From Crambe crambe (taxonomy: Eukaryota > Porifera > Demospongiae > Poecilosclerida > Crambeidae), in the NCBI GenBank assembly GCA_963924555.1, contig OZ004581.1, positions 3,534,001 to 3,598,000 on the forward strand: a DNA stretch of 64,000 nt. The letters run 5' to 3'. The translations under genes and the position numbers were made by a program. The notes below the pieces were generated by a model. It was not told the DNA's origin. It saw only the letters and a program-made list of their open reading frames with translations, and ran no database searches. Of the stretch, positions 5,529-30,400 are shown one piece after another (positions within the stretch are counted from its first letter, which is position 1; every line of letters begins with the position of its first letter).

Positions 5529-6491
5529 ATGCCTCGACCATATTCTACAGACTTGAGGTGGAGAATAGTGTGGCTTTATCTCTCCACAAAAAATCCTGCT
5601 AGAGTTGCTGGTCTATTGAATGTATCAGAGAGTACAGTTTGGCGGTATATTTCATTGTTTCAACAAACAGGTGATGTTAAAGTGAAAGCTAGAAGATATG
5701 GCCCTAGGCCATTGATGGAAGACTATGAGCAGATGATTTTACTTCAATTCATCCTTGAAAATCCTGGCATATACTTGCATGAGCTTCAATTGTTGTTGCT
5801 TCAAAGGTTTGGTGTGTCTATCAGTGTTCCCACTATCTGTAGAACCTTGAGATTAATGCGTTGTACTCGTCAGGCTATGCACCGAGTGGCACTGCAGAGA
5901 TCTGAAACAATGAGAGCAAAATTCATGCATGAGATCTCAGTATTTGATCCTTCCATGCTCATTTGGCTTGATGAAAGTGGGTGTGATCGCCGTCATGCAA
6001 TGAGGAAGTATGGGTACAGTGTAAGAGGTACACCAGTATGCGATCAGAGACTTTTAATCAGAGGAATCAGGTACACAACTCTACCAATTGTGTCATTGGA
6101 TGGTATCCTTGATGTATTAGTAACAGAAGGAACAATGGATGGGGACCGTTTTATTAACTTCATACGAAATGTTTTATCACCTCATTTGCTCCCTTTCAAT
6201 GGCGTTAATCCACGGTCTGTAATTATCATGGACAATGCTAGCATTCATCATGTTGATGGTGCAATTGATCTGATTGAAAATCAAATTGGAGCGAGGGTAT
6301 GTTTCCTTCCAGCCTATTCTCCGGATCTAAATCCTGCAGAAGGTGTGTTTAGCCAAATAAAAGCCATTATGGAAGAAAATGATAAACTTTTCCAAGTTTT
6401 TTCAGCACCAAGAGCACTGTTAGCTATGGCATTTGCTTCAGTCACTACTGAAGACTGCAAAGGGCACATACACAATTGTGGATACATTTAA
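5529..6491 (+). CDS. IS630/Tc1-mariner family DDE transposase
   Basis: A 320-residue uninterrupted frame, the usual length for this family. The N-terminus (about residues 1-110) reads as tandem helix-turn-helix DNA-binding modules, including LLNVSESTVWRYISLF. The catalytic triad is visible: first Asp in WLDESG, second in IIMDNASIHH, and Glu in YSPDLNPAEGVFSQIK, with 35 residues between the second Asp and Glu. The enzyme should cut and paste the surrounding element (ends at 5388 and 7536) at TA sites. The ATG at 5529 gives the expected N-terminus (PRPYSTDLRWRIV). The frame is intact and the C-terminus complete, so it may still be active or only recently silenced. Confidence 0.88.
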   Translation: MPRPYSTDLRWRIVWLYLSTKNPARVAGLLNVSESTVWRYISLFQQTGDVKVKARRYGPRPLMEDYEQMILLQFILENPGIYLHELQLLLLQRFGVSISVPTICRTLRLMRCTRQAMHRVALQRSETMRAKFMHEISVFDPSMLIWLDESGCDRRHAMRKYGYSVRGTPVCDQRLLIRGIRYTTLPIVSLDGILDVLVTEGTMDGDRFINFIRNVLSPHLLPFNGVNPRSVIIMDNASIHHVDGAIDLIENQIGARVCFLPAYSPDLNPAEGVFSQIKAIMEENDKLFQVFSAPRALLAMAFASVTTEDCKGHIHNCGYI

Positions 6492-11237: not shown

Positions 11238-11887
11238 GATTTATTGAAGGCATAGGGGAAAACCATAAAAGGGAGAGCCTGACAATTGAGTTTTCTGAGA
11301 TGACTCCTTGTGTAGTCTGAGAGAAAACCTATCACCACTTAATGATTAAGGCATTATGCATGGGGAAGAACTGAAGGTATTTAAGATGCCTGAAGAGAAC
11401 CCTGTGGTCCAGTTTACATAAAATGCAGCGAAGTGCTTGCATCAGTTCTGGTTCTGTTTACATAGGTTTTAGCAATACATTTGAACAGAAATGCAATGTC
11501 TCCAGAGCAACATTTTTTTAAATGTGCCATATAGCATTACTTCTCTTGCAGCAGTTATGGTTTATATTACAAAAGGCAAGAAACCAGGGCTACTATGGCC
11601 AGACTATTAAAAAAAAATTGGCGCTAGATTTTGAAGCAAAGTATTAGCCATCAAGGTCCTCCTTAAGCTTAACAGCAGGGTGGAATGGTTTGCGTGAATT
11701 TTGCTTTTTTTCATATAAAAGTAATCGTTGTAATATTGTGGAAGTCCAACTAACAACTCAGTCAGGTCATGGAGCAAAAAAGAAGTGGATAAAAAATTAA
11801 GGCTAACTTTAAATGCACATATCAAAAATAATCATGTATAATGCATTGTGCATGATGTTGTTATTAAAGCAAATTTACTTATTTTAG
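11238..11887. other. Non-coding stretch before the COR exon
   Basis: No exon, promoter or RNA gene could be supported. An in-frame TAA (11839) with no ATG between it and 11888 shows the COR exon is internal or spliced to something further 5'. Confidence 0.5.
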
Positions 11888-12446
11888 TTCCAGAAAACTT
11901 GCCACAACTATTTTTATATGATCATGAGTGTGATGAATTGAAGAACCTAGTGATTCTCCGTCGACAGTGGCTGTTCAATGTGATGACTGTCATTTTGGGG
12001 TTCAAGAGTAAAACATCAAACAAGGAAGGTGAGGACGGAAAGCAGAGCACAGCTGATGTGGCTAAAAAGCTAAAGCCTTCGGAGAAGGATGCTCTGGAAG
12101 AAGGTAGAGCTGATAGCAATGTTCTTCAAAAGTGCTGGGAAAATTTCACTGATAATGCAGATGTCGAGTATCTCATCCCTTGTATGCTTCCAGAGCTAAC
12201 AGAGGAAAGGAAAGAAGAGTTAAAAGACCAGTTGGAAAATTGTCCCTGGTTCTATATGTACTTTGATTTTGAGAAGTTTCTTCCTGCCCAAATTTACTAC
12301 CAGCTGGTCTGCTTGCTTGGTGATTCTAAAACTTCCTCACCTGAGGATATTTTCACCAGCACTGTGTGTGTTCTCAATGACGTCAAAGATTACCACTGGA
12401 AAGTGGAATATGAGAGAGATTCTCACGGACTCAAAGTTGGTGTTTT
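11888..12446 (+). CDS. Exon: COR-like domain
   Basis: Starts after 'cttattttag' (phase 1), ends at TT|GTAAG (phase 2); about 186 codons. The pattern fits the C-terminal-of-ROC (COR) domain of ROCO proteins such as DAPK1 and MFHAS1: an opening L-x-x-L-V-I-L-x-x-x-W-L block (ELKNLVILRRQWLFNVMTVI), a charged variable linker, then LEEGRADSNVLQKCWENF, YLIPCMLPEL and FDFEKFLPAQIYYQLVCLL. In ROCO proteins COR follows a Ras-like GTPase and mediates dimerisation; no GTPase is seen upstream in the window, so the 5' part is either missing or outside it. Confidence 0.72.
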
Positions 12447-15400
12447 GTAAGTTTGCTAGCTGTGATAACTTTATACATATCTACTACTGTTACACTTCTG
12501 AATTATTTTGTTGCACAGGTCTTCCTGTGAAGATAAACTTGAGCACATTAAGGATATCCATAACAATCTTTCTTCAATATGTATGGATAGCAGTCTTGAA
12601 GGACTGAAGTACTATGGAGGGCCCTTTGAAGTAAAGTGCCCAGTCGAGAATTGCTCACAGTGTATTCTTCCTTATGTGTGCTATGGACGAGAAGAAATAA
12701 AAGATGTTGTCACATGTATCAAATGCAAGCAGACTACTGATGTACACTCTAAGGTAAAGGCTTACTACGCTTTGGTAATATATATAAATTATCCACTAAA
12801 TTATTTTTAACATTATAGCTTGGTGGTGTTACAAGCAACAAAGGTAAGATTAATTGAGTACTTAAGTTATAGCTAAGTCTCTGTATTGTATTATAATACT
12901 CTCCAACTTTATTTATATAAAAATCAAGGATTTTGATTACCTTAAATTACCTCTTCTTCCCTTTCTTTGTACACTCCATAACATTACAAAAAATCTATGA
13001 CCTTCTGCAATCTCTGTTGTTTCTGTTCATTGCTGTCTTTTAGTCAGTTCTCTTCATGTCAGAATGGGCCTGATTTGTTGGCAAAGACGACCAAGAAGCA
13101 TCAGCTCTCTTCACGGTGTAGAGTTACTGTGTAGTGACTGCGAGCCTGAACCTGAGTCTGTCTGTCCTTAGTACTGTAGAGCTTGTGCTAAGACGTACGT
13201 ACCATAGTTGCCTCATTTAATGGATTTTTTGAGAGTATTATATTCTTGTACAGGCATATACAGTAACAACTGCACAACAACAATCAGTAGCAGCTAAACT
13301 GTTCTAGGCTGTTACTGCTAACTATGAATAAATTATAAACAATGCACTTCAGTTAACAAAAAACTAAGGAAACAAGAAGGATGGAAATGGGATCAATCTT
13401 TGTTCTGTATATCCAGCCAACAATCCCTACATATACGTACATTACTACACTATAATCTGAAGCTACCCAACGTATATGTAGGGATTGTTGGCTGGATATA
13501 CAGAACAAAGATTGATCCCATTTCCATCCTTCTTGTTTCCTTACTTTTTTGAGCAGTGGTCATCCCTACATCTTTTTTTCATTTCAAGAAATGATTTTTC
13601 CCTTACTTGTATACATATATAGGGATGACCATTGCTCAAAAAAGTAAGGAAACAAGGGTAGGGATGAAGGATGGAAGGATGGAAATGGGTTTGTTCTGTA
13701 TATCCAGCCAACAATCCCTACATATACACACTATTATCTGCAGCTACCTGACGTATATGTAGGGATTGTTTGCTGGATATACAGAATAAAGATTGATCCC
13801 ATTTCCATCCTTCCATCCTTCATACCTACCCTTGTTTCCTTACTTTTTTGAGCAATGGTCATCCCTACATTTTTTTTCCATTTCAACTTACTTTTATTCC
13901 TAAAACTGTGCTGGCAGAATGTGTATAACCACCGTCCATGCAGGCGAGGGTACAGTGCCATGGTAGGGCACTAGCCAAGCTGGACAGCTGGCACATCATT
14001 ATACTAAAACAAGAAATAAGAATATTGCACAGGAATACAAAAGATGTATCATATTTGAAAAACACATTACCCAAACACATAAAAAAATGTCCTTCATCCT
14101 TCAGTGTAGATGGAGGACTACCGAAGGTCCTAGCAGCTTTAATTGATGAAGGACACTCCATATTATTCAGTGATACTCCATAATTATTACTTTGAGCTTA
14201 ATCAAACTTCCTAAGATGGAACTACCGTCAAAATCCATGAAATGGATGGGGATCTGCTTTTGAATTCTACTTCTGAATGTTAAAATTGGCAAATGTGGAA
14301 GGCACAGCCATAATTAAATGAATTTTTTTTTTTTATCAGATATGGATAAATCATACCAACAGTACATTAAAAAATTCATCCATGCAAAGAAGCAATGGAG
14401 GTTGAAACAAATAATGGATTCTGATCATGCTCTTCCTGAATATATCACTGACTGGGAATCAAAGTTAGTGGTCCCATTGGGCATACCAGCGAATAAGGTC
14501 AAAGACATAAAGGCAGCTCATCCTACCCAGCCAGTGCTTGAAAGGTTAGTAGCTATCTCTTTAATGTCACATAACAGTGGAATAGTTCAAGTGATTATAA
14601 TTATAGCCAGTTAAATAATAACAATCGGACTGCTGTATTACGAATTTACAATAGCTACTTATTGTGCTATAATATTGTACAGGAAAGAGGTATTGAGAGT
14701 TTGGAAAGCAATAGCAATATTTAATGCCACATATGAAAACCTCATAAAAGCCTGCATTGAAGGACATGAATATGCTGCTGAAGACATCTGCAAATATGTA
14801 CAGGAAACCACAAAAGGTATAATTATTTAGTCCCCCCTTCCCCCAGAGGTAGTTGTCTCCTATCCACAATTAGAACTAATATTAATAGATGGGTCTTATC
14901 AAAGTTGTACTTGCTAAGCTCGACAACCAAAAGACAATTTTTTCATATGCTAATAAATGATTATGTAAACCAGAATTTAAATATGTGACCGAATTCACTT
15001 CACGGAGAATCGTCGCTGGCGTTCTTCGCGAATCTCCTTCTCGCGTTTAGCCGTCTCTTCCTCACGTCGTCGGTGTTCTTCGCGAATCTCCTCCTCGCTT
15101 TTAGCATTTTCCTCTTCTCTGAGCCTGCATTGTTCAGCTAGCTCTTGGTTTTGCCATTGTCTCTGGTCTGTAGCCTCTTCCTGATTGTGTAGTCATCCAA
15201 TCTCGTAGACTTTCTTTTGCGGGATTCTGACCCAAACTTGTTGCCGATGTATATCCCACCGATGCCACCAACTGTAGTAGCTACCAACAAGAGATCTAGA
15301 CTACCCCGAATCAGATTAGTAACCAAATGGCTCAACTTCAAACTCTCTAGCTAGAAAAACTCTCTCTAAAGACTCTCTAGAACTGTCTCTGCTACCTACT

Positions 15401-18400: not shown

Positions 18401-21400
18401 GCCTCAGTCCTAAGTGCTTACAGTAAGATAGGAACTGAATGTCTCCTTTGGCATTTCACTGGGTTTCAAACAGGAAACCTAAGGAATTTACCTCATTTAT
18501 TTTATAAGACACTTATGCCTTGCCTAACAAACTTTCCGTCTTTTAATGAGGCACACTCAGATGATGCGAAAGTGCACGAGGTTACATAAATGCACGAGCC
18601 AAAGGCAAGTGCATTTATGTAACCTTATGCACTATCACATCATCCTCATGTGCACACATTAAATGACTTAAAGTTAACTAGGCATATAATAACTATTACT
18701 TATGGCATAGCTATTTACATAGGTCATTAGCCTCATTCCCAAGCCTTTCCTCTCTCACTATCTCTCTTACTTGCACTCCAACCCTGTATGGAGGATTTAT
18801 CATGCAACTGACGTCACAAATTGCAAGCTTTTATTATTAACAGTGGAACCTCTGATATGGGACAATCTAGCTACCCCCAAATGATTTTATACACAACTAA
18901 TGGAAGGCTACCTCTGAAAGCGACCACCTCTTAGAGAAGAACATCACTGCTCATCAAAAAGGGCCTGAAGCTACTGCTAGCTAGTTTCAGTACAGTACAC
19001 TATTATAATAGGGTAGGGGGTGTGGCTGTGGTGTGGCTTCCTGGCTGCCCGCTAAAGGTAATTTTTTAAATTGAAATTGACAGTCAGGAGTCCACAAATT
19101 TGCTCGATGTTCGGAGGTGGAAGACTGGGATGCTAACTTTATTCTAGCTAATGGAGATAATAACGTCATGCAAACATAAAATTATTTTAGGTTGATAATT
19201 AAAATTCTTTCTACCTCATGTGATACAGTGAGGCCTTCCTCTCATTTTACTCTTCTTCTTCATTTTTACCTCTACATGGGGTAAGAGTCCAAATAAGGGA
19301 TCAAGACAGTGCAAACGAAAAGAAGGCTATGGTATTCTTCCTACTCCACTGAAAAAGTATTATCATAAACTCAAACTGAATATACTGTTCATTTTGAATG
19401 GATCTTTTGAAAAAGTTCTACAATCACCTTGAACATGCTTTTACTACTTGTATTCAGTGATAGTGGACTATAGGTGCAGCATACATAGTCTCGCATGCGT
19501 GAGACTAGGTGCAGCATTAGATGTATGTATGGATCTTATGATGCTTACTTTTCTACAGAATTTTTCTGGGCCCATGTGTACCTTCAACCATTGGAAACTC
19601 TTCTTATTGTATGTGTGAGTCAGAAGCTAATTTCTAAAGGTGAGACTCATGACAGCTAATGCAATTAATGTGACTTCACTTTCTGTAATACAGTAAAAAG
19701 TACCTACCATCAAATATCGTGGTATTGTCAAGAAGTGTTTGACTGTCAAACAAGCCAGATATTTCCATTGAACTACACAGTGAAGACTGTACACATAAAA
19801 GTAGCTACAGCTGTGGTTTCCGTAGCATTCATCGCTGCCAGTATCATCTTCTATCTACTATTGCTCTCTGGGGATGTGGAATTGAACCCTGGGCCAGCCA
19901 TTTTCTCTGGCAAGGACTATAGTTAAATTCTTGAATTGTATATGCATGAGATAGCTACTATTTCCTTTTGTAGTTTCATTCTTCCTTTACTTCATCGGGA
20001 TGACTTCTGTCCACCTAGTGCACGCACCAGTCATTCGTCAAGTGATGAGTGACAACAACACTACAGGAGAAGGTGCAACTGGTAGCACATCCCTCCCTCC
20101 ATCCCTCTCTGGTACGGCTGTTATGAATCAGTGGACCATTCCACTTGAATGGAGTGGTGGAATGGAATACTGGAACACTTTTTTTTTGTTATTGTTTGTA
20201 TGTGAGCAAACAAATGTACCTATCCTTCACTCTCTCAGCCTATTCCCATGCCCTTCACTCCAGGTGCGTCCATTTCGTCATCCGCTCCCAGGGATAACTA
20301 TTTTCTCCTATGATTATGCTTCATATCTGGATTCTTGCAAAAATATTCAAGCCATTTTGCCCACCATAGGACAAGGAATTGAGTGCCAGTCTTGATTACC
20401 ACATTATTTCCTGTGTACGGACCGCACAATTTGGAGATACCTAAAATTAATATATCATTTCCCAGCTCAGAAATACACACAAACAACTTCTTTTTTTACT
20501 GTGGAAGTCCAGCAACTCCTTTGGTCCCTTCCCTCTTGTATATTATAAATAAAAAATGAATTCCAGTATTCCATTCCACCATTCCATTCCAGTGGAATGG
20601 TCCACTGATTCATAACGGCCCTCTGGTACAGTATTCTATAATAATTATTATGTAATATTATCTAAATAATTGTAATGTTAACTCAGGTAATTCTGATAGT
20701 GACATTGCCGGAATTGTAACAGGTGTCTTTGGAATGCTTACTGGCCTCATTGGAGCTATCATTGCTATTGCTGTCTTTAGCTTCAATGTGTGGAAACATT
20801 GCCTTCAACCAGGTATAACGCTAACAGGATAATTAATTTACTTGCGCATGATGATGTTTCTTAGGGTCAAAAGGCTATCTTATGATTATACAGCAGTCTA
20901 ATTTGTCAGGGCATACGAGTTAAGTACTATAGCTATATTATGTAGGCTTGATTCTTATTGCCGATAAACCCTCCGGCCTTAGTATAACGCCCTTTCTGCA
21001 CTGGGATGCTACAGCTCAGGACCCATGGGATTCTAAACACTCTTGGTTTCAGAGCCTGTATAGAAACATGCAGGAAGTCATTATAATTCATATCCATTCT
21101 GGACTATTTTTTCCTCCTTTAGTGCGTCTCAAAATTGAACCTAATGGTACCAATGTCATTGGAAAAGATTACTCTCTAACATGTACTGCCATGACTGATA
21201 TTCCTGGGGACACATTTGAATTTTCTTGGATCTATAACAATGCTCCTGTTGATGGAAAGGTTGACTCCAGTGATACAAAGAGCAAACTGTCATTTGAACC
21301 CCTGAACGGTTCTCATAAAGGAGAATACACTTGTAAATGTTCACTAAAGCAGAGACGTGGATGCTTTTCAAGGATATTGCTTCCAAACTTAGACGGTTCG

Positions 21401-24400
21401 ATATCATACCACTTGGATGTAACTGGTAAGCACCACCATGAACCGATCATAGAGGGCCATATTGTGAAAATAGTGTCATTTACCCTTTACTTCCAGACCC
21501 TATCATTTCAGCCACTATCAAGGATGATAAGTATCCAATAGTTGGAAAAAGTTATAAACTGGAATGCACTATAACTGGAGCAGAAGGTTTCACTCCCAAG
21601 TACCAATGGATGCGTGATGACGTTGATATTCAAGGAGAGACAACTCACTCACTCTCCTTTGATTGCCTCAAATTCTATGATAGAGGACGCTATAGATGTA
21701 GAGTCACCATTGAGTGTGATCTCCTCACTGAACCTCTCTCTGGCACAAGTAATCCTGTGGATGTACGACTAAGTGGTATGTTAGAATTACCATACTTATA
21801 TATAAGAGAGTCCTTATTGTATGTTGCTATTATTAAACAGTGAGAGATTAAGAATGTGTGTATAGCTATGTGTGTGCCAATCTAAATTGCAATCCTAAAA
21901 CACCACATCATAATCAAGAAAATGTAGTGTATTATAAATACTGAAGTTTATGGTATTTTGGTAATTGGAGGGCTAGGGCTAGTGCTTTGGGAGTCTCCCA
22001 CACTATGATGGTACCTGCATATTTTTTTCTACAAAAAATGTATCACAGTCAGGGATGGATCCAGGGTCCTATCCCCCAGTCTGTGATTTTATGATAAAAC
22101 CTTATCACACATTTAAGTGGATCATACCCAACAAAAAAATTACCTCCCATCTAATATGCCAAGGGTCCTGAGAGAACAACAGTATAGTAGAAGTGATTTT
22201 CTGGCCAGCCCCTTTCATGTGGAATATCTCTGTGATCCAACCCTTTGCAGTATTTACAAGAAGCATTAATTCCTGGTCACATGACATTTGACCAATCAAA
22301 TTCCTTAAAAACTGTACTTAAACTGCAATTTGCAGAGCCACAGAGTGCCTAGACTCATACCCAGGCTCAGTCACTGAGAGTTCTTTTATAGAATTACCTG
22401 TTCAGCAAAACGCAATAGGTTTTTCAACCAGGAATGTAGTCAATGGAAGTTGATCATAGTTAATGTCATAAATTCCAACAAAACATTGAAACCGGACAAG
22501 CACAGTCAATTAGTAGCTGATATAAATGGCTAGCTTCTACTATAGTGTATGACAGGAGGGACCATTACAGTCTATACTAAGAAGACCTGTGATTGTCGAA
22601 CGTTTAATCAATTGAACTCATGATTACAACAAGTCATGAACATAATTAAAATGCAGTGAAAGCCAGTATTGCAGGCTGGTGCAGCTATTATGCATGCGGT
22701 CATGCAAATAGTCATGAATCATGGGCATGCCTTCTCAGTGGGCAAACACTCTGGTCGAGGGGTGAAAGTTTCGTGATTTCTCTTCTGTCCGCGAATATTT
22801 AACCACGCTAATCACTTTGGCAAATCTCGCTCAGGCCAGACTCTTCACTAGAGTTGTGTCTAGTTCATGTGTCTGTGATTCTACAACGGATAGACTCACC
22901 TCGCTGAAGAAATCAGAGCTTCGAGGCGGCAGAACATCTGTCATCGCTATGCCATGGCAAAAGGATCGCTGCACAATATAATGCTTCGCTAACTACAGCA
23001 CTCCAGATATCGTTTTAAATTTAACCTCTCTAGCTAGAACTCAGTCTCAAACGAAAGATAGCCTGCCATCGAAGCTTCAGCTAGCTACCTCATAGCTCTG
23101 TGTGCATGCACGCACGCACATGGCTGCTGGCCAGGTTTTTTGTTTTTTTTTGTTGTTGTTGTCGTTTTCAAAATCTAAACCGTGAATGATTTTCCCCGCA
23201 AAATAAGACTAATTGCGAAACTTTTGCCCCTTGAAATATACCCGATATATAGTACCTCTTTAACTTTTTGTTACTACTACCATTGAAGAGTTGATTTTCA
23301 CATAGACTATCATTGTTAATTTCGAACTTTTCGACTCTTAATTCCAAGGAAAAGGCAGCACCTGAATCAAGGTGGTGAAATTATGAAGAGAGGAGCTTCA
23401 GGTACTTGCTGTTAAAGAGTGGAGGACCTACTGCAGTTCGCATCAGGTTGTCCAGTGAACTGCTGAAGTGGACAGCATCAAGAATTTTCACCTTGTAACT
23501 GACTGACCCTCCCCTCTCCATCAGGAGACCTGCATAGCAGTTTTGTAGAGGATTGAAACATCCAGCATACATAGCTGCAGTCCATGGAAATGTTCAGCCA
23601 ATTTCCATATTCCTGACTTTAAATGCACATTGAAACCCAACAAACACAGTCAAGTAAGCGTTATAAAATGGCTGGCTCTTCTGCTATAGCTAATGGCAGA
23701 AGGTGCCTTTGTTGTGGCCAGAGTGACCTCTAAAAATACGCCTAGCTCATCAACTCTCTTACCACTGTGATATCACTATGAAAGTTCTTCAAACCTAGAC
23801 AACCAAATGATAATGCATTAGCTATACTATACAAGTCTTAAGGTAACTATCAGCAATTAATTTCATGATTTTAAGGTTTAATTTAGCAGAAGTTTTCATA
23901 TTAATTCCAATACTGGTACTAGACGAGATAGAGACAATACATCTTTCTGTGAATTTGCCTGGTAACTTCCTCGAAATACCGCATTTCAAACTTTCATTTT
24001 AAAAAGTCTTTGCAGGCTATATCCATCAGTTGGAGTAAATCAGTAGTGTTGGCTGGAAGTAAGCATATATACATGGATGTTATGGGCTTCAGGAAGATTG
24101 TTGATTGTGCTGCCTTTTAAGTTATCCATTAAAGCAGGACATTAACTCAGTAAAGTTATTGGAAGTCTGTGTCTAGCCTCATTGATGCAAAATGGTTGGT
24201 GGAATGGCGGAATACATCTCAGACAACCCCCAATTCTGAATGGAATTTGCAGAACACATGATAGAGATGCCAGGAAGAATCTGAAGACAAATCAGAAAAT
24301 GAGAATCTGATAATGAATCTGATGAAGATTATTAAATTTTTTTCCAGCAATGAGAGTGACTGATAGCTAAAATATTATGTCTTATCCACTGCTTTAGCTT

Positions 24401-27400
24401 GACCTTTGCTTTGAACAACGGGCCACACGGAATCTCTTGGCCTCCTTGAAATAGATCTGCTGAGTGCCTTCTCCCTCCAGTTACTGTGCAGCATATGGAT
24501 CTTCTTCTTCTTAGAAAGTGTGAGGCAATCTTTGAAATCTTTCTTGGAAGATGTCCAGTAATGGTAACAGCAACAGTGTACCTATTGCTAGAGTTTTCAG
24601 GTTCTCTTCTGCAAGAAAACTGTTTTCCGCATGCCATTATTTTGATACACATTTTAGCCTCTGATCCACCGCAGTACTTCCAAATCTTCCATAGTTGAAC
24701 TGGCTAGCTAGCTAGCTAGCTATGGCATGTTTATCATGTGCACATTATGTGCTATATTTTTTGTGTTTTGGTCAGAGTGTGTGTGTGAAATTAATTTTTC
24801 AATATGTGAATTATTACATACTGACCACGCAAACATCATAAATTGCTATTTTCTATACTTTCAGAGCCAAGCATTTCTGCCACTCTTAAGGATAGTGTTT
24901 GTCCGACATTGGGAGAGCAATACTCACTGGAGTGCACAATATCTGCAACAGACTGTCTCATTGAGTATCATGATACGACTTGTGAAATAACATGGTACAA
25001 GAATGGAACAAGGTTACACACAGATTATCTTCAATTATCGAATGCTAAATCTGTTCAGTATGAATTGGAATCCCTCAAATACTCTCATAGGGGACGCTAC
25101 ACATGTGAAGTCACCATTACATGTGGTCTAGTAAATGCACTCCCCAGAACTGCATCCCTCAAAGCCACAAGTAATCAAGTGGATGTTCAACTAAGTGGTA
25201 TGTTAGTTTATATGCATTTGTTGTATATTTATGTCTATAATTGCCTAGTGCAATTACCTAACCAAACTGCACAAAAAAAAAATTGATTACTTGTATCAGC
25301 CTGGGCAGCTGCATGTAGGAAGCTGTTTATGTGAACCTGTAATGCTTGCCACAAAACACTTACTTAAGCCTAGGGTGGCCTATTAGGCCAACAATCCACT
25401 TAGATAAGAATGCTGTAGAAATCAATCTACCCAGTGGAGTAGGAACAGAAGAAATAACCACTAGCAGTGCACTGTAGTGTGAATTAACAACTTGTACAAC
25501 AATGAATGTACACATTCCATGCATCTTGTGTCTTTTATTATATAACACTTCTATAATCATGCTGTAGTATTATTGCAGCTAGCGAGCTGACTCTCAGGTC
25601 ATGACTCATTGAAATTTTAAATAATCTAGGTCTACACTCCAAAATGCTAGTATTGCGGGCCCGACCCTTTACCAACCGCGAGGGAAGGAAAGAGTCTGGT
25701 CAAATCCAATACATGATCTTGTTGTGCACAGTCAGCAATCTTCTGAAGGAAGGGCGCGGCTATGACGTTATTATACATCACGAATTTTAGGAAAAATCTG
25801 CGCTCTGGATTTCTTAGCGCCACATGGCTGAGCAGGAATATGATTACAGATTGGAGGCGGCTATCCAAGAGAGTGGGAGGAGGCTTGGAAACAGCTTTCT
25901 GGTCAGAAAGTGTCGGAATTTTTTTCAGTGCAACTCCTGCAAGTACCTGGAGCAGTTCTTTGGCTGATGCACACCCTGGACCATGCAGCCTTTTCTTTTT
26001 CCTATGATCACTACCAATGAGATCTCTGCACAAGCAGCAGCTGGTTAACATGACTAAACTCATAGGACTACTCTAGCTCTGCAAGCACACACGCGAAAAA
26101 AATCGTTTGAGAGCCGTGACGTATCGTGACGTTTTGCGCATGCCCGCCACCAAATCTTTGGCAAGTTGAAACAAGATCATGTATTGGATTTGACCAGACT
26201 CTTTCCTTCCCTCGCGGTTGGTAAAGGGTCGGGCCCGCGAGACTACCAAAATGCCCCAGGCATACATACACATACATGTACATACGTGTCCCGAAATAGT
26301 AGCACTGTGCGTGTGCATAATGCGCATGCTCCAATTGTTTTCTACAGCCTTTTGTCATAGAGGTGCTAGCTTATTTAAGTGGATTGTAGGCACTTGTTAT
26401 CCAAGTGCTTGTGGTAAATATTTACAGCTTTCTATATATGGAGCTTCCCAGTTGGAACCACAACTTACATGACTCTTGTCTCTGACAGCAATATGATGCA
26501 CTGGAGCCTATCAGCTGCTCACTTGCTCACTGTCAAATGCTGCACATTACTATAGTAATAGTTGTAGAGGCTCTAGGCTTATTTAAGTACTTTGTTACAT
26601 ATAAACTCAACAGCAAATCTTCGAAAGAGTTGTAGCACTAACTTGCTTGCTCGCTCGCTGTCAAAATTAATGTTGCACATTGCCCGTTCCCAGGCCTTCC
26701 TCTCCACCTCACAAAATTAACGCCTGGGAATGAGGCTAGTATTATAAGGGAAAAAGCATTTTGTGAAATGAAAAAAGAAGTAGGGATGACCACTGCTCAA
26801 AAAACAAGAAGGATGGAAATGGGATCAATCTTTGTTCTGTATATCCAGCTAACAATCCCTACATATACGTCGGGTAGCTTCAGATTATAGTGCAGTAATA
26901 TATGTATATGTAGGGATTGTTGGCTGGATATACAGAACAAAGATTGATCCCATTTCCATCCTTCTTGTTTCCTTACTTTTTTGAGCAGTGGTCATCCCTA
27001 CATCTTTTTCATTTCACGAAATGCTTTTTCCCTTACTTGTTTTCCTGGTCTTTTTTCCTCTCTTTTATGGTTTTAGCTATGTATAGAGTTCATTCTTCTA
27101 TGCCGGGACAGATGGAATAAGAATAGTTCTCCAATAGCATAGCAATGAGTCAAGGTGTTGTGTTATTGTTGAGCTATACTTAGAGGTCGAATATGCTAAA
27201 ATAGAGTCTACCGGTAGCTGGATTGGTGAATCTAAAATCCCCAAATCGATAGTGTAGTCCATTATCTAGAGATAGCTGAGTAATATTATAATTTCGAATA
27301 ATTAGATATCAAATACATGCGCATGCATATTATAGGCTTCCTAATTGAATTAGTCGAGTGCTGTGCTCCGTAGTGTCTCCTTTTTTCATCAACTCTTTCG

Positions 27401-30400
27401 AGGATCAACGAGTAGAGTGGTTCGAGAGATATGGTTGTCTAAGAAGAATAATAATAAGAAGAAGAATAATAATAATAGAGAAGAAGAAGAATCTAGCGAT
27501 TTACCTGCTTGCCGTATTTCAGAAACGGTAAGCTTCCTGGTCCTGAAACTTGGTCTGCACATTGTAGTAGGCTCTAGTAGGCTGGATAATCATTCACAGT
27601 AGCTTTTGTTAGGTCTAAGTGGGGGAACTAGAATTTCACTTTTGTATTAGTCTAAAGGCGGCGTGCGCGGCCGTCCGAGTCATCCAGTGCTACTGCACTC
27701 TCTAATATATGTTTGTGGCAGAAAATTTTAAAATATGCACTTATTTGACACTAGCTTATTTCATACATGCAACATTTTCTTGAAGCCATAATGCTGATTT
27801 GAATTCCTGTTGGCTTCGCCTCCAAGGCTATCAGTTAAATCGATCATGCCTGGATATATAGATTGCATGTGAGTTTAAAATTAATGATCCATCGATTGAT
27901 CCATCAATTGATCCATTGATTGAACTCTGTGAGCTTTAGTGAATTTTTGAACACAAACATTGTTCCTTATAATTATAGGAGCAAATCTGAAATGGTTATA
28001 AGCAAAGAGAGTGCAAACAAAATCTTTTGGTGACTACACCCACTATGTGATCAACAGTTATACTATGGTAACATAGTACTTACCATCAATGATCATGTAC
28101 CATGAGAGTATACTATTTTACGGTCACGCTGTCACATTTTGCTTCTTTTTTTTTGATGTATTCAGAACCAAAACTCAAAGCTACTTTATCTCTTCATCCA
28201 AAAGATGGTAACCTAGTTCTGGGGAAAGAATATGAACTGCAATGCAAGCCTGGATTGAATATTCCAGGAATGGATATTGATTGTTCCAGACTTGATTGTA
28301 CCTACAAGTGGCACAAAAAAGGAAAAGAAGAACCCATAGACATTACAACAAAAGGAATCCTTAGCTTGAAATCTTTTGAATTTTCTGATGCTGGATGCTA
28401 TACTTGTACAGTTACTGTTAAAAAAAATTATCTTCTTGATAGTGACCTCACGGTCACAGAAGAAAGAGATGTGGAAGCAGTACTAGGTAAGACAAGATAT
28501 GTTTTGTCTGTTCAAAGGAATGCATTGTGTAAAGCAAGGATTTGTGCAATAATATTATTATGAGGGATGGAGCCTGATGTTGGATAAATGGGGGGAAGGA
28601 GGGGGGTGGGGGCAGGAGATCCCTCAGAGGATATTCATAATCCCGAGTCTTGAGTGCTTTTATGCTCAGCACTTACCAACTCTATATTCCAATTATTGCA
28701 GCAGAAAAATGCCGGGAAGAAATGAAGGAGAAGTATAAAACGATGCAGTTTGACCCCATTGATAACAATTGGACAAGGAGGCATGTGATCAAACTCTCAC
28801 TTGAGAATCATGGTAAGGGAAAACCTGGAGATGGAAATAAAGGGACTCTAGAAGTTTCAGAGATTTTCAAATCCTCTAAGCATATCACAGTACTTAAGGG
28901 AAAACCTGGAGCTGGAAAAACTACACTTATGAGAACAATTAGTCGTGACTGGTCACTTGGAAAGATCAAAGAGTTTTCAGAAAAGATACTCATTCTGGTT
29001 ACAATCCGAAATCTTCATCATCAAGATTACAGTGTAGAAAACATCATAAAACAATCATGCTCCGACAGCGAAAAGTGTAAATACCTTCTTCAATGCCTTG
29101 ACAGTGGTCAAGGAGAGGGCTTTGTGTTTTTATTGGATGGATTAGATGAATATCACGAGTCACCCCAAGACATCCAGCCCAATGCTTCACAGCTAACATC
29201 TGCCGTTGAAAATATTCTAAGTGCGAATATTTTAAAGAAAGCCACAATTATTGCTACATCCAGATACTCTGCCTACTTACTCGATAAAATTAACCATGAT
29301 AATGCATGCTATTTTGAAATCAAAGGTTTTCTTAGAAATGAAGTATTTGATTACTTTAAAGAACGTTTTAAGGAGGATAATGACAAATGTAGTGAAGTGA
29401 AAAGATATCTAACAGAAAATCCTAACATGGTGAGGTTATGCTATATACCCTTACACTGTGCTATTATGGCAAATATATTATTTGAAAAGCATAAGGAAGA
29501 TCCACCTAAGACCGAAACAAAGTTTTTCGAGATGCATACAAGATGTAGAATTGTCCGATCAGTACATAGACAAGGTAATCGTCTTTTTTTTCTACGAAAG
29601 CTTGATAAACTTGAGGGTAAAAACCGAAACCTATTTAATGGTATTTGCGAGTTAGCATACCATGCAACAATGGAAAATACACAGAGTTTAGATGAGATGG
29701 AACTAGAGAAGCTCGAACTTAAGTTTGACAGTTTCCATTCACATCAGGCTAATATTAATGGAGGCCTAGGGTTACTTGTTGTCACCCCCGATATAACACG
29801 AGAAGGTTTACCTAACAACACATACAGTTTTACTCATCTTGCTGTTCAAGAATTCTGTGCGGCGTTCCACATTGCTAAACTGCCACAGAAAGATATAACT
29901 GAGATCATCAAGGATGAGAAATGCTGTAATCGCCTCAATTCTGCATGGAAGTTTATTTGTGGACTACTAGACTTCACTAACAACTCTAATGGTGCATTGG
30001 AAGTATTTCGTACTTTAATAGAAAAATGTACAAATGCAGGAGAAGATTTGCTTTTCAAGATTCAGTGTGCTCATGAGACTCAGGAACAAGAGCCATGTAT
30101 AGTCCTTTATAAATCCCTCAAAAAAATTGGGATTTTGGGCATGACACCACCAGAACTTTCACTTTTCATGGATACGATGAAAATATTAGGGAGTGCGGAC
30201 ACCGAACTTCCAGATCTCGAAAGTATCAAGTGAGTGTCATTGATATGGCTGGTATGTACAGCAAGCATAATCATATAGTACAATGCAGTTTATTATGCTC
30301 TAGCCAAATCACAGCTGTAAGGTCATAGGGCAGTTGTAAATAAATCTTGTAGTGAAATGTTTGCAGAAAGTGTAAATAGCAGTACATTCACAGAAGTACT

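Follow-up and report, generated by a model that had tools for sequence, protein, structure and literature searches.

The question raised by this locus is which two proteins a 2A (StopGo) motif would separate in a gene of immune type. The window, meaning the whole stretch of 64,000 nucleotides that was analysed (C1:3534001-3598000 of a genome of 143 Mb in 119 contigs, which was also searched), had been predicted to encode a single message yielding a COR-DEATH part upstream and an Ig-NACHT-LRR part downstream of such a motif. The pattern D-x-E-x-NPGP occurs once in the six frames of the window, on the forward strand at 19873-19896, where the letters DVELNPGP satisfy the 2A/StopGo core (D/G/C/N)(V/I)ExNPGP, and the Leu-rich, hydrophobic context upstream of the core is present as well (FYLLLLSG; KD15 of 2.79 in the last 25 residues). 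The open frame containing the motif starts behind an AG at 19693 and ends in a TAA at 19924-19926, bearing out the original prediction that SGDVELNPGP lies inside an open exon from 19694. The motif is not a chance occurrence, because nine tandem copies of the exon keep it and because the D(V/I)ExNPGP DNA pattern matched 150 sites in the genome and a further 57 with a GTG codon, compared with none for the reversed-pattern controls; open frames were verified for those of these 207 matches that were read.

Splice consensus served to set the exon limits, which in the first four exons are also supported by paralogue conservation (Table 1). The 2A exon had been expected to end at 19921 and to splice cleanly to its neighbours. 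The downstream exons can indeed be joined in frame, and the acceptor at 19973/19974 is kept in all nine copies, but the exon end did not hold, as it would need a poorer-looking donor (ATA/GTTAAA) just before the in-frame TAA. The end was placed at 19909 instead, since seven of the nine tandem copies carry a GT donor there. In the alignment of nine 3-kb neighbourhoods, these seven copies read G/GTAAG, and G/GCAAG is found in the window copy and in its twin L010 (C1:3710698-3713925), which is 99.8% identical to the window unit over 3206 aligned bases.

Table 1. Features of the 2A leader and the downstream exon chain, in window positions.
Feature	Position	Strand	Remarks
Leader exon A	19525..19639	+	If the start is ATG 19525; phase-1 end, GTGAGA donor; ATG and open frame in 9/9 copies
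Leader exon A, alternative form	19559-19639	+	If spliced from an upstream exon at AG 19557-19558
2A exon	19694..19909	+	Phase 1 at both ends; open in 9/9 copies
Hydrophobic segment VATAVVSVAFIAASIIFYLLLL, immediately before the 2A motif	19801..19866	+	Kyte-Doolittle up to 2.69 over 19 residues
SGDVELNPGP, 2A/StopGo motif	19867..19896	+	Predicted skip between G 19891-19893 and P 19894-19896
GC splice donor	19910..19911	+	GT at the same place in 7/9 copies
Signal-peptide-like exon VSFFLYFIGMTSVHLVHAPVIRQVMSDNNTTGE, putative start of downstream product	19974..20072	+	Phase 1-1, open in 9/9 copies; signal role inferred by eye
Transmembrane-like exon GIVTGVFGMLTGLIGAIIAIAVFSF	20687..20812	+	Open in 9/9 copies; by hydropathy
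Ig-like exon 1	21123..21425	+	Pfam Ig_3 7.6e-6, 26.8 bits, below the curated cut-off of 30
Ig-like exon 2	21497..21775	+	Pfam Ig_3 6.2e-11 for the frame, above cut-off
Ig-like exon 3	24865..25197	+	Pfam Ig_3 9.4e-6, 26.5 bits, below the curated cut-off of 30
Ig-like exon 4	28166..28486	+	Pfam ig 0.0021, below cut-off
NACHT exon	28702..30229	+	Pfam NACHT 9.1e-20, 71.6 bits, cut-off 26.7; downstream paralogue in 9/9 2A copies

The frame from ATG 19525 is free of stops across exon A and the 2A, signal-like and transmembrane exons in all nine copies, with indels confined to whole codons, and the predicted release point is residue 105 when counted from this putative start. To the eye the ATG has a weak context, and all three sites that vary in 19525-19557 would be nonsynonymous, so a spliced start further upstream is possible. 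The alternative acceptor of exon A has phase 1 and could thus accept a phase-1 exon from upstream.

Counted with the leader, the spliced model as far as the NACHT exon is open over 1106 residues, every junction being in phase 1 from the 2A exon onward in this sequence-based model. Splice consensus places Ig and NACHT in one gene model, in which the transmembrane exon precedes the first Ig-like exon. The predicted Ig-NACHT-LRR part was thus recovered in its Ig and NACHT elements, with four Ig-like exons and the NACHT exon in phase, but not in its LRR, for which no Pfam match was obtained at E<=0.01 on the forward strand between 30.3 and 40.2 kb, a search in which small exons could be missed. 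Among the four Ig-like exons, the Pfam cut-off is passed by the frame of exon 2 only. No transmembrane segment was detected between Ig and NACHT, the highest 19-residue hydropathy over model residues 190-620 being 0.87; exons within long introns could be missed by this count. The transmembrane segment is flanked by acidic SDSD before it and positive NVWKH after it, and these charges weakly suggest that Ig and NACHT would face the cytosol. The second product would start with its own signal-like stretch, with the transmembrane segment, the four Ig-like domains and NACHT behind it, and this NACHT protein is therefore probably bound to the membrane. When the full window model was used as a protein query, two distant NACHT matches were the only ones obtained among 7989 scored candidates.

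On the other side of the motif, a COR-like exon (11887-12447) and a death-like exon (14318-14611) lie on the same strand, approximately 5.6-8 kb upstream of the 2A exon. The COR match in the window is weak (COR-A, E 0.001, under the curated cut-off), and the DEATH exon by itself gave no Pfam match at E<=0.01; the latter is 40-78% identical to 20 exons elsewhere in the genome (E<1e-8, its twin not counted). Of the nine 2A exons, only two have close copies of the COR-DEATH pair in their neighbourhood, namely that of the window and its near-identical duplicate at C1:3.70-3.71 Mb (L010). In L010, the COR and DEATH copies lie upstream at about the same distance as in the window. The closest other relatives of the two exons differ in location, with COR near C1:5.03 and 5.97 Mb (90-96%) and DEATH near C9:8.40 Mb (78%). 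No Pfam match to a Roc domain, which a ROCO-DEATH gene would have next to COR, was found on the forward strand between 0.6 and 30.4 kb. Upstream of COR, between 0.6 and 10.5 kb on the forward strand, Pfam shows only a DDE_3 transposase with HTH (5544-6383, +), that is, an ordinary DNA transposon. As a constant upstream partner of the 2A exon, COR-DEATH was ruled out, since it was not found upstream of seven of the nine tandem copies.

The nine copies of the 2A exon are located on C1 at 3.55-3.99 Mb, are free of stops and share 89-100% protein identity, and each is followed by a NACHT paralogue 3.6-17.1 kb downstream. The conserved unit is the series of leader exon, 2A exon, signal-like exon and transmembrane exon, with NACHT downstream. 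Within the helix and 2A motif (19801-19896), all six sites that vary among the nine copies are synonymous (P=4e-4, against an expected synonymous fraction of 0.274), this being the best of six segments, with P values from 0.24 to 0.78 for the other five. The corresponding synonymous/nonsynonymous counts are 4/15 in the 2A exon before the helix and 1/2 after NPGP, 2/4 in exon A, 5/10 in the signal-like exon and 8/34 in the transmembrane exon. Because all variation in the helix and 2A is synonymous and that in the other segments is not, the purifying constraint detectable in these alignments is located on the helix and 2A. A third-position excess over exon A, the 2A exon and the signal-like exon pooled was not significant (P=0.19), and pN/pS was 1.02 for NACHT (nine copies, three of them partial). 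For the transmembrane exon and Ig1 the ratios were 1.76 and 1.27, soft values given that L013 and L014 are misaligned in Ig1; these two copies were left out of the Ig1 codon-position count only. The ratio above 1 over this stretch (20687-21425) may be a sign that the receptor part is under diversifying selection. Of the stretches compared, the most conserved is the 54-nt intron that precedes the 2A exon (19640-19693), with a mean distance of 0.004 vs 0.048 for the exon, and recent duplication or conversion therefore contributes to the similarity among copies.

Across the genome, 157 2A sites were listed, comprising 100 of the 150 sites of the first pattern and all 57 of the GTG pattern, and most lie in arrays, such as the 23 on C9 at 0.31-0.57 Mb and the 15 on C8 at 0.60-1.09 Mb. 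Among the matches listed, a death exon follows on the same strand within 1 kb at no fewer than 85 of the 157 sites and within 2.5 kb at at least 95, compared with an upstream death exon at none within 1 kb and at one within 2.5 kb, and none in antisense. By contig, a death exon was present within 2.5 kb downstream at at least 35 of 36 sites on C9, at least 25 of 30 on C10, at least 23 of 32 on C8 and at least 7 of 30 on C5. Either a death exon within 2.5 kb or a typed NACHT within 18 kb accompanies at least 106 of the 157 listed sites. Neither was found, among the matches listed, at 51 sites, 23 of them on C5, but those of L071, L073 and L076 do carry ankyrin or death-like frames. The region of C5 at 4.57-6.37 Mb, which includes L077, has 21 listed 2A sites with no death exon or NACHT downstream among the matches listed.

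The leaders themselves share several properties. A hydrophobic run directly before the motif (KD15 >1.5) was observed in 25 of the 33 contexts read, which represent 31 distinct sites, vs 15% of 195 random ORF windows. A donor of the form G[TC][AG]AG lies within 20 nt after NPGP in 22 of these contexts, at +1, +4, +7, +10, +13 or +19 and always in phase 1, and none was found by this pattern in the other 11. The 22 donors correspond to 20 distinct sites (L028/L071 and L034/L072 being identical places) and are not independent, because these sites fall into fewer leader families. Seven leaders (L021, L030, L036, L038, L070, L073 and L077) begin with Met and a hydrophobic, signal-peptide-like stretch, as judged by hydropathy only. 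The D, E and NPGP of the core are invariant among 14 diverse aligned leaders, partly by choice, since these leaders were collected by motif. When the 14 were used for a protein search, 64 proteins were retrieved, 63 of them with the motif; in two (P0055 and P0056), a single predicted chain contains the leader and 2A together with a precomputed Pfam Death domain. Nine proteins from short contigs (P0083, P0084, P0086-P0089, P0091, P0092 and P0095) show 45-49% identity over 73-84% of one leader, which is therefore conserved outside the exact copies described here. Three others (P0057, P0072 and P0100) have one or several 2A-like motifs beside a region that appears zinc-finger-like by eye, as in some retrotransposon ORFs.

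Death-like frames were recognised by eye downstream of 2A in nine of eleven loci (L067-L077). L077 showed no recognisable downstream frame by eye. At L071 (C6:8353500-8358000) the 2A leader is followed by an ankyrin-repeat frame of 1036 residues and by a weak ZU5 match. Pfam Death was matched by L070 (1.3e-9) and, below the curated cut-off, by L072 (2.3e-4) and L067 (0.0072); the death-like exons of L068, L069, L073, L074, L075 and L076, taken singly, gave no Pfam Death match at E<=0.01. Other Pfam domains were NACHT in L070, ankyrin repeats in L071 and L075, and Ig in L069. A profile built jointly from the window exon and the nine death-like exons, which includes L070 and L072 with their full or near match to Pfam Death alone, matches solved death domains (THOC1 2.2e-9, PIDD 5.3e-6, FADD 8.3e-6).

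Taken together, the locus is probably best explained by a 2A (StopGo) exon that is spliced in as the leader at the 5' end of an Ig-NACHT receptor gene. This exon occurs in nine tandem copies and would be one instance of a module placed before many death-domain, NACHT, Ig and ankyrin genes. The original prediction of two proteins from one message is consistent with what the sequence, the phases of splicing and the pattern of selection show, but its assignment of the products does not: with leader, 2A, signal-like and transmembrane exons and NACHT in all nine copies, and COR-DEATH upstream of two, what the motif splits off from the Ig-NACHT protein is most likely a hydrophobic leader some 105 residues long, and not a COR-DEATH protein. 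It is very unlikely that one mRNA carries COR-DEATH upstream and Ig-NACHT downstream of 2A, so that a sensor and a death-fold signaller would be made at a constant ratio, although a chimeric COR-DEATH-2A transcript is conceivable in the two copies that carry both. The COR and DEATH exons do lie within reach on the same strand, and the phase-1 alternative acceptor of exon A would permit an upstream phase-1 exon, but the pair was not found upstream of seven copies, its two members have their closest other relatives in separate places, and death exons across the genome are found downstream of 2A (at least 95 against 1 for the 157 listed sites).

That the 2A letters are a relic without skipping, leaving the leader fused as a signal anchor, would be compatible with the hydrophobic character of the leaders, which could serve targeting alone; this is nevertheless unlikely, as every residue of the helix and 2A is kept in the nine copies despite synonymous change, and as the D, E and NPGP that are invariant in the 14 motif-selected leaders would be unneeded for targeting. 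If, on the other hand, the GC donor at 19910 is unused, translation stops at 19924, and the message of the window copy and its twin would end in the 2A exon and encode only a short leader protein. The replacement of GT by GC in these two copies and the in-frame TAA speak for such a dead donor, but no stop interrupts the downstream exons of the window copy up to and including the NACHT exon, and GC donors with an otherwise good consensus are used in animals, which makes it quite improbable. The least credible reading, that 2A was left behind here by a non-LTR retrotransposon, an element class in which 2A sequences are known, draws on the existence of 2A-bearing elements (in the available text of PMC4981915) and on the retrotransposon-like appearance of P0057, P0072 and P0100. 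Against it, many 2A sites lie in tandem arrays with death or NACHT exons downstream and close donors in phase 1. No Pfam match to reverse transcriptase or endonuclease was found on the forward strand between 10.5 and 30.4 kb at E<=0.1, and with this and the arrays a simple LINE remnant was ruled out as the present state, although the leader may ultimately derive from a retrotransposon.

The sequence itself shows the exon with its phase, how it is conserved and that it is linked to immune-type genes, and ribosome skipping at the G-P bond would be expected from the known behaviour of 2A. For the preferred arrangement of a 2A leader before an Ig-NACHT receptor, the ribosome would make the leader, of 105 residues if ATG 19525 is the start, ending in the hydrophobic helix and 2A; the leader would be released after NPG, and synthesis would resume at P to give the second product with its own signal-like stretch. 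Nine residues separate the end of the helix from the predicted release point, and at skipping the helix would still lie inside the exit tunnel or close to it. Once released, the leader would therefore act as a tail anchor, being inserted late like a tail-anchored peptide. Where skipping failed, both hydrophobic stretches would remain on one chain, which could alter the membrane insertion or the destination of the receptor. In the death-domain families, the skipped product would be a cytosolic signaller and the unskipped one targeted to the ER, and the rule described for sea-urchin NLRs may apply there more simply. A more far-reaching and tentative possibility, which we consider rather doubtful at present, is that StopGo forms a standing layer of innate immunity, in which as many as roughly 200 death-domain, NACHT, Ig and ankyrin genes carry an interchangeable phase-1 leader-2A exon at their 5' end. 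The share of skipping failures would then set the membrane or cytosolic state of the receptor or adaptor for each message, and the leaders would be freed as membrane or secreted peptides. If this were true, altered translation during infection could act on all 2A-leader genes at once.

Several known systems resemble parts of this arrangement, and the comparisons are limited to the available portions of the papers cited. A 2026 study describes StopGo as widespread among RNA viruses but its use by cellular genes as rare, extends the core motif and cites the sea-urchin case (PMC12846837). The sponge leaders share with the viral sequences the core (D/G/C/N)(V/I)ExNPGP and a Leu-rich helix just upstream, but here they are cellular, spliced and in tandem arrays across the genome. 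AjNLRC4 of Apostichopus japonicus is reported as an Ig-NACHT membrane receptor without LRR or CARD (PMC8699970), comparable to the window gene in combining Ig, NACHT and a transmembrane segment with no LRR found. The order given for AjNLRC4 is extracellular Ig, transmembrane segment and NACHT, whereas here the transmembrane exon precedes the Ig exons, and Ig would therefore lie on the NACHT side. Membrane-bound NLRs are also known in sponges and were first reported in Amphimedon queenslandica, according to PMC12909245; the window gene would likewise encode a demosponge NACHT protein with a transmembrane segment, while the main text of that paper, in which "ribosom" is absent, has no mention of 2A in the part available.

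In the open-access literature searched, no report of 2A or ribosome skipping in sponges was found, and 2A leaders of NLRs were found in the sea-urchin paper, with a picornavirus paper naming NLRs in passing. In Strongylocentrotus purpuratus, the accessible text describes 2A-like sequences at or near the N-terminus of about 35% (85/241) of NLR proteins, and an N-terminal NLR 2A leader that recodes and acts as a signal sequence in cells (PMC4981915). As in SpNLR2A, the 2A motif would stand here at the 5' end of NLR-type immune genes; it occurs in large families, follows a hydrophobic leader, and has products that would be expected to split between the membrane route and the cytosol. The differences, as far as that text allows, are that the sponge motif occupies a separate exon, close to its 3' end, and that the donors are in phase 1; that the leaders seem longer than the 26 residues given for SpNLR2A and belong to several dissimilar sequences; that the downstream parts include death-domain, ankyrin/ZU5-like and Ig exons besides NACHT; and that the second product of the window gene would begin with its own signal-like stretch and transmembrane segment. 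On this sequence comparison, a modular 2A leader exon ahead of numerous death-domain and NACHT genes would represent a variation on the sea-urchin arrangement that has not been reported in the literature searched. Should the leaders prove active, they would form one of the largest cellular 2A sets known to us, tied to immune-type death-domain and NACHT genes, and would offer many natural paralogous leaders for probing the balance between skipping efficiency and ER targeting; the sea-urchin case would then not be a one-off.
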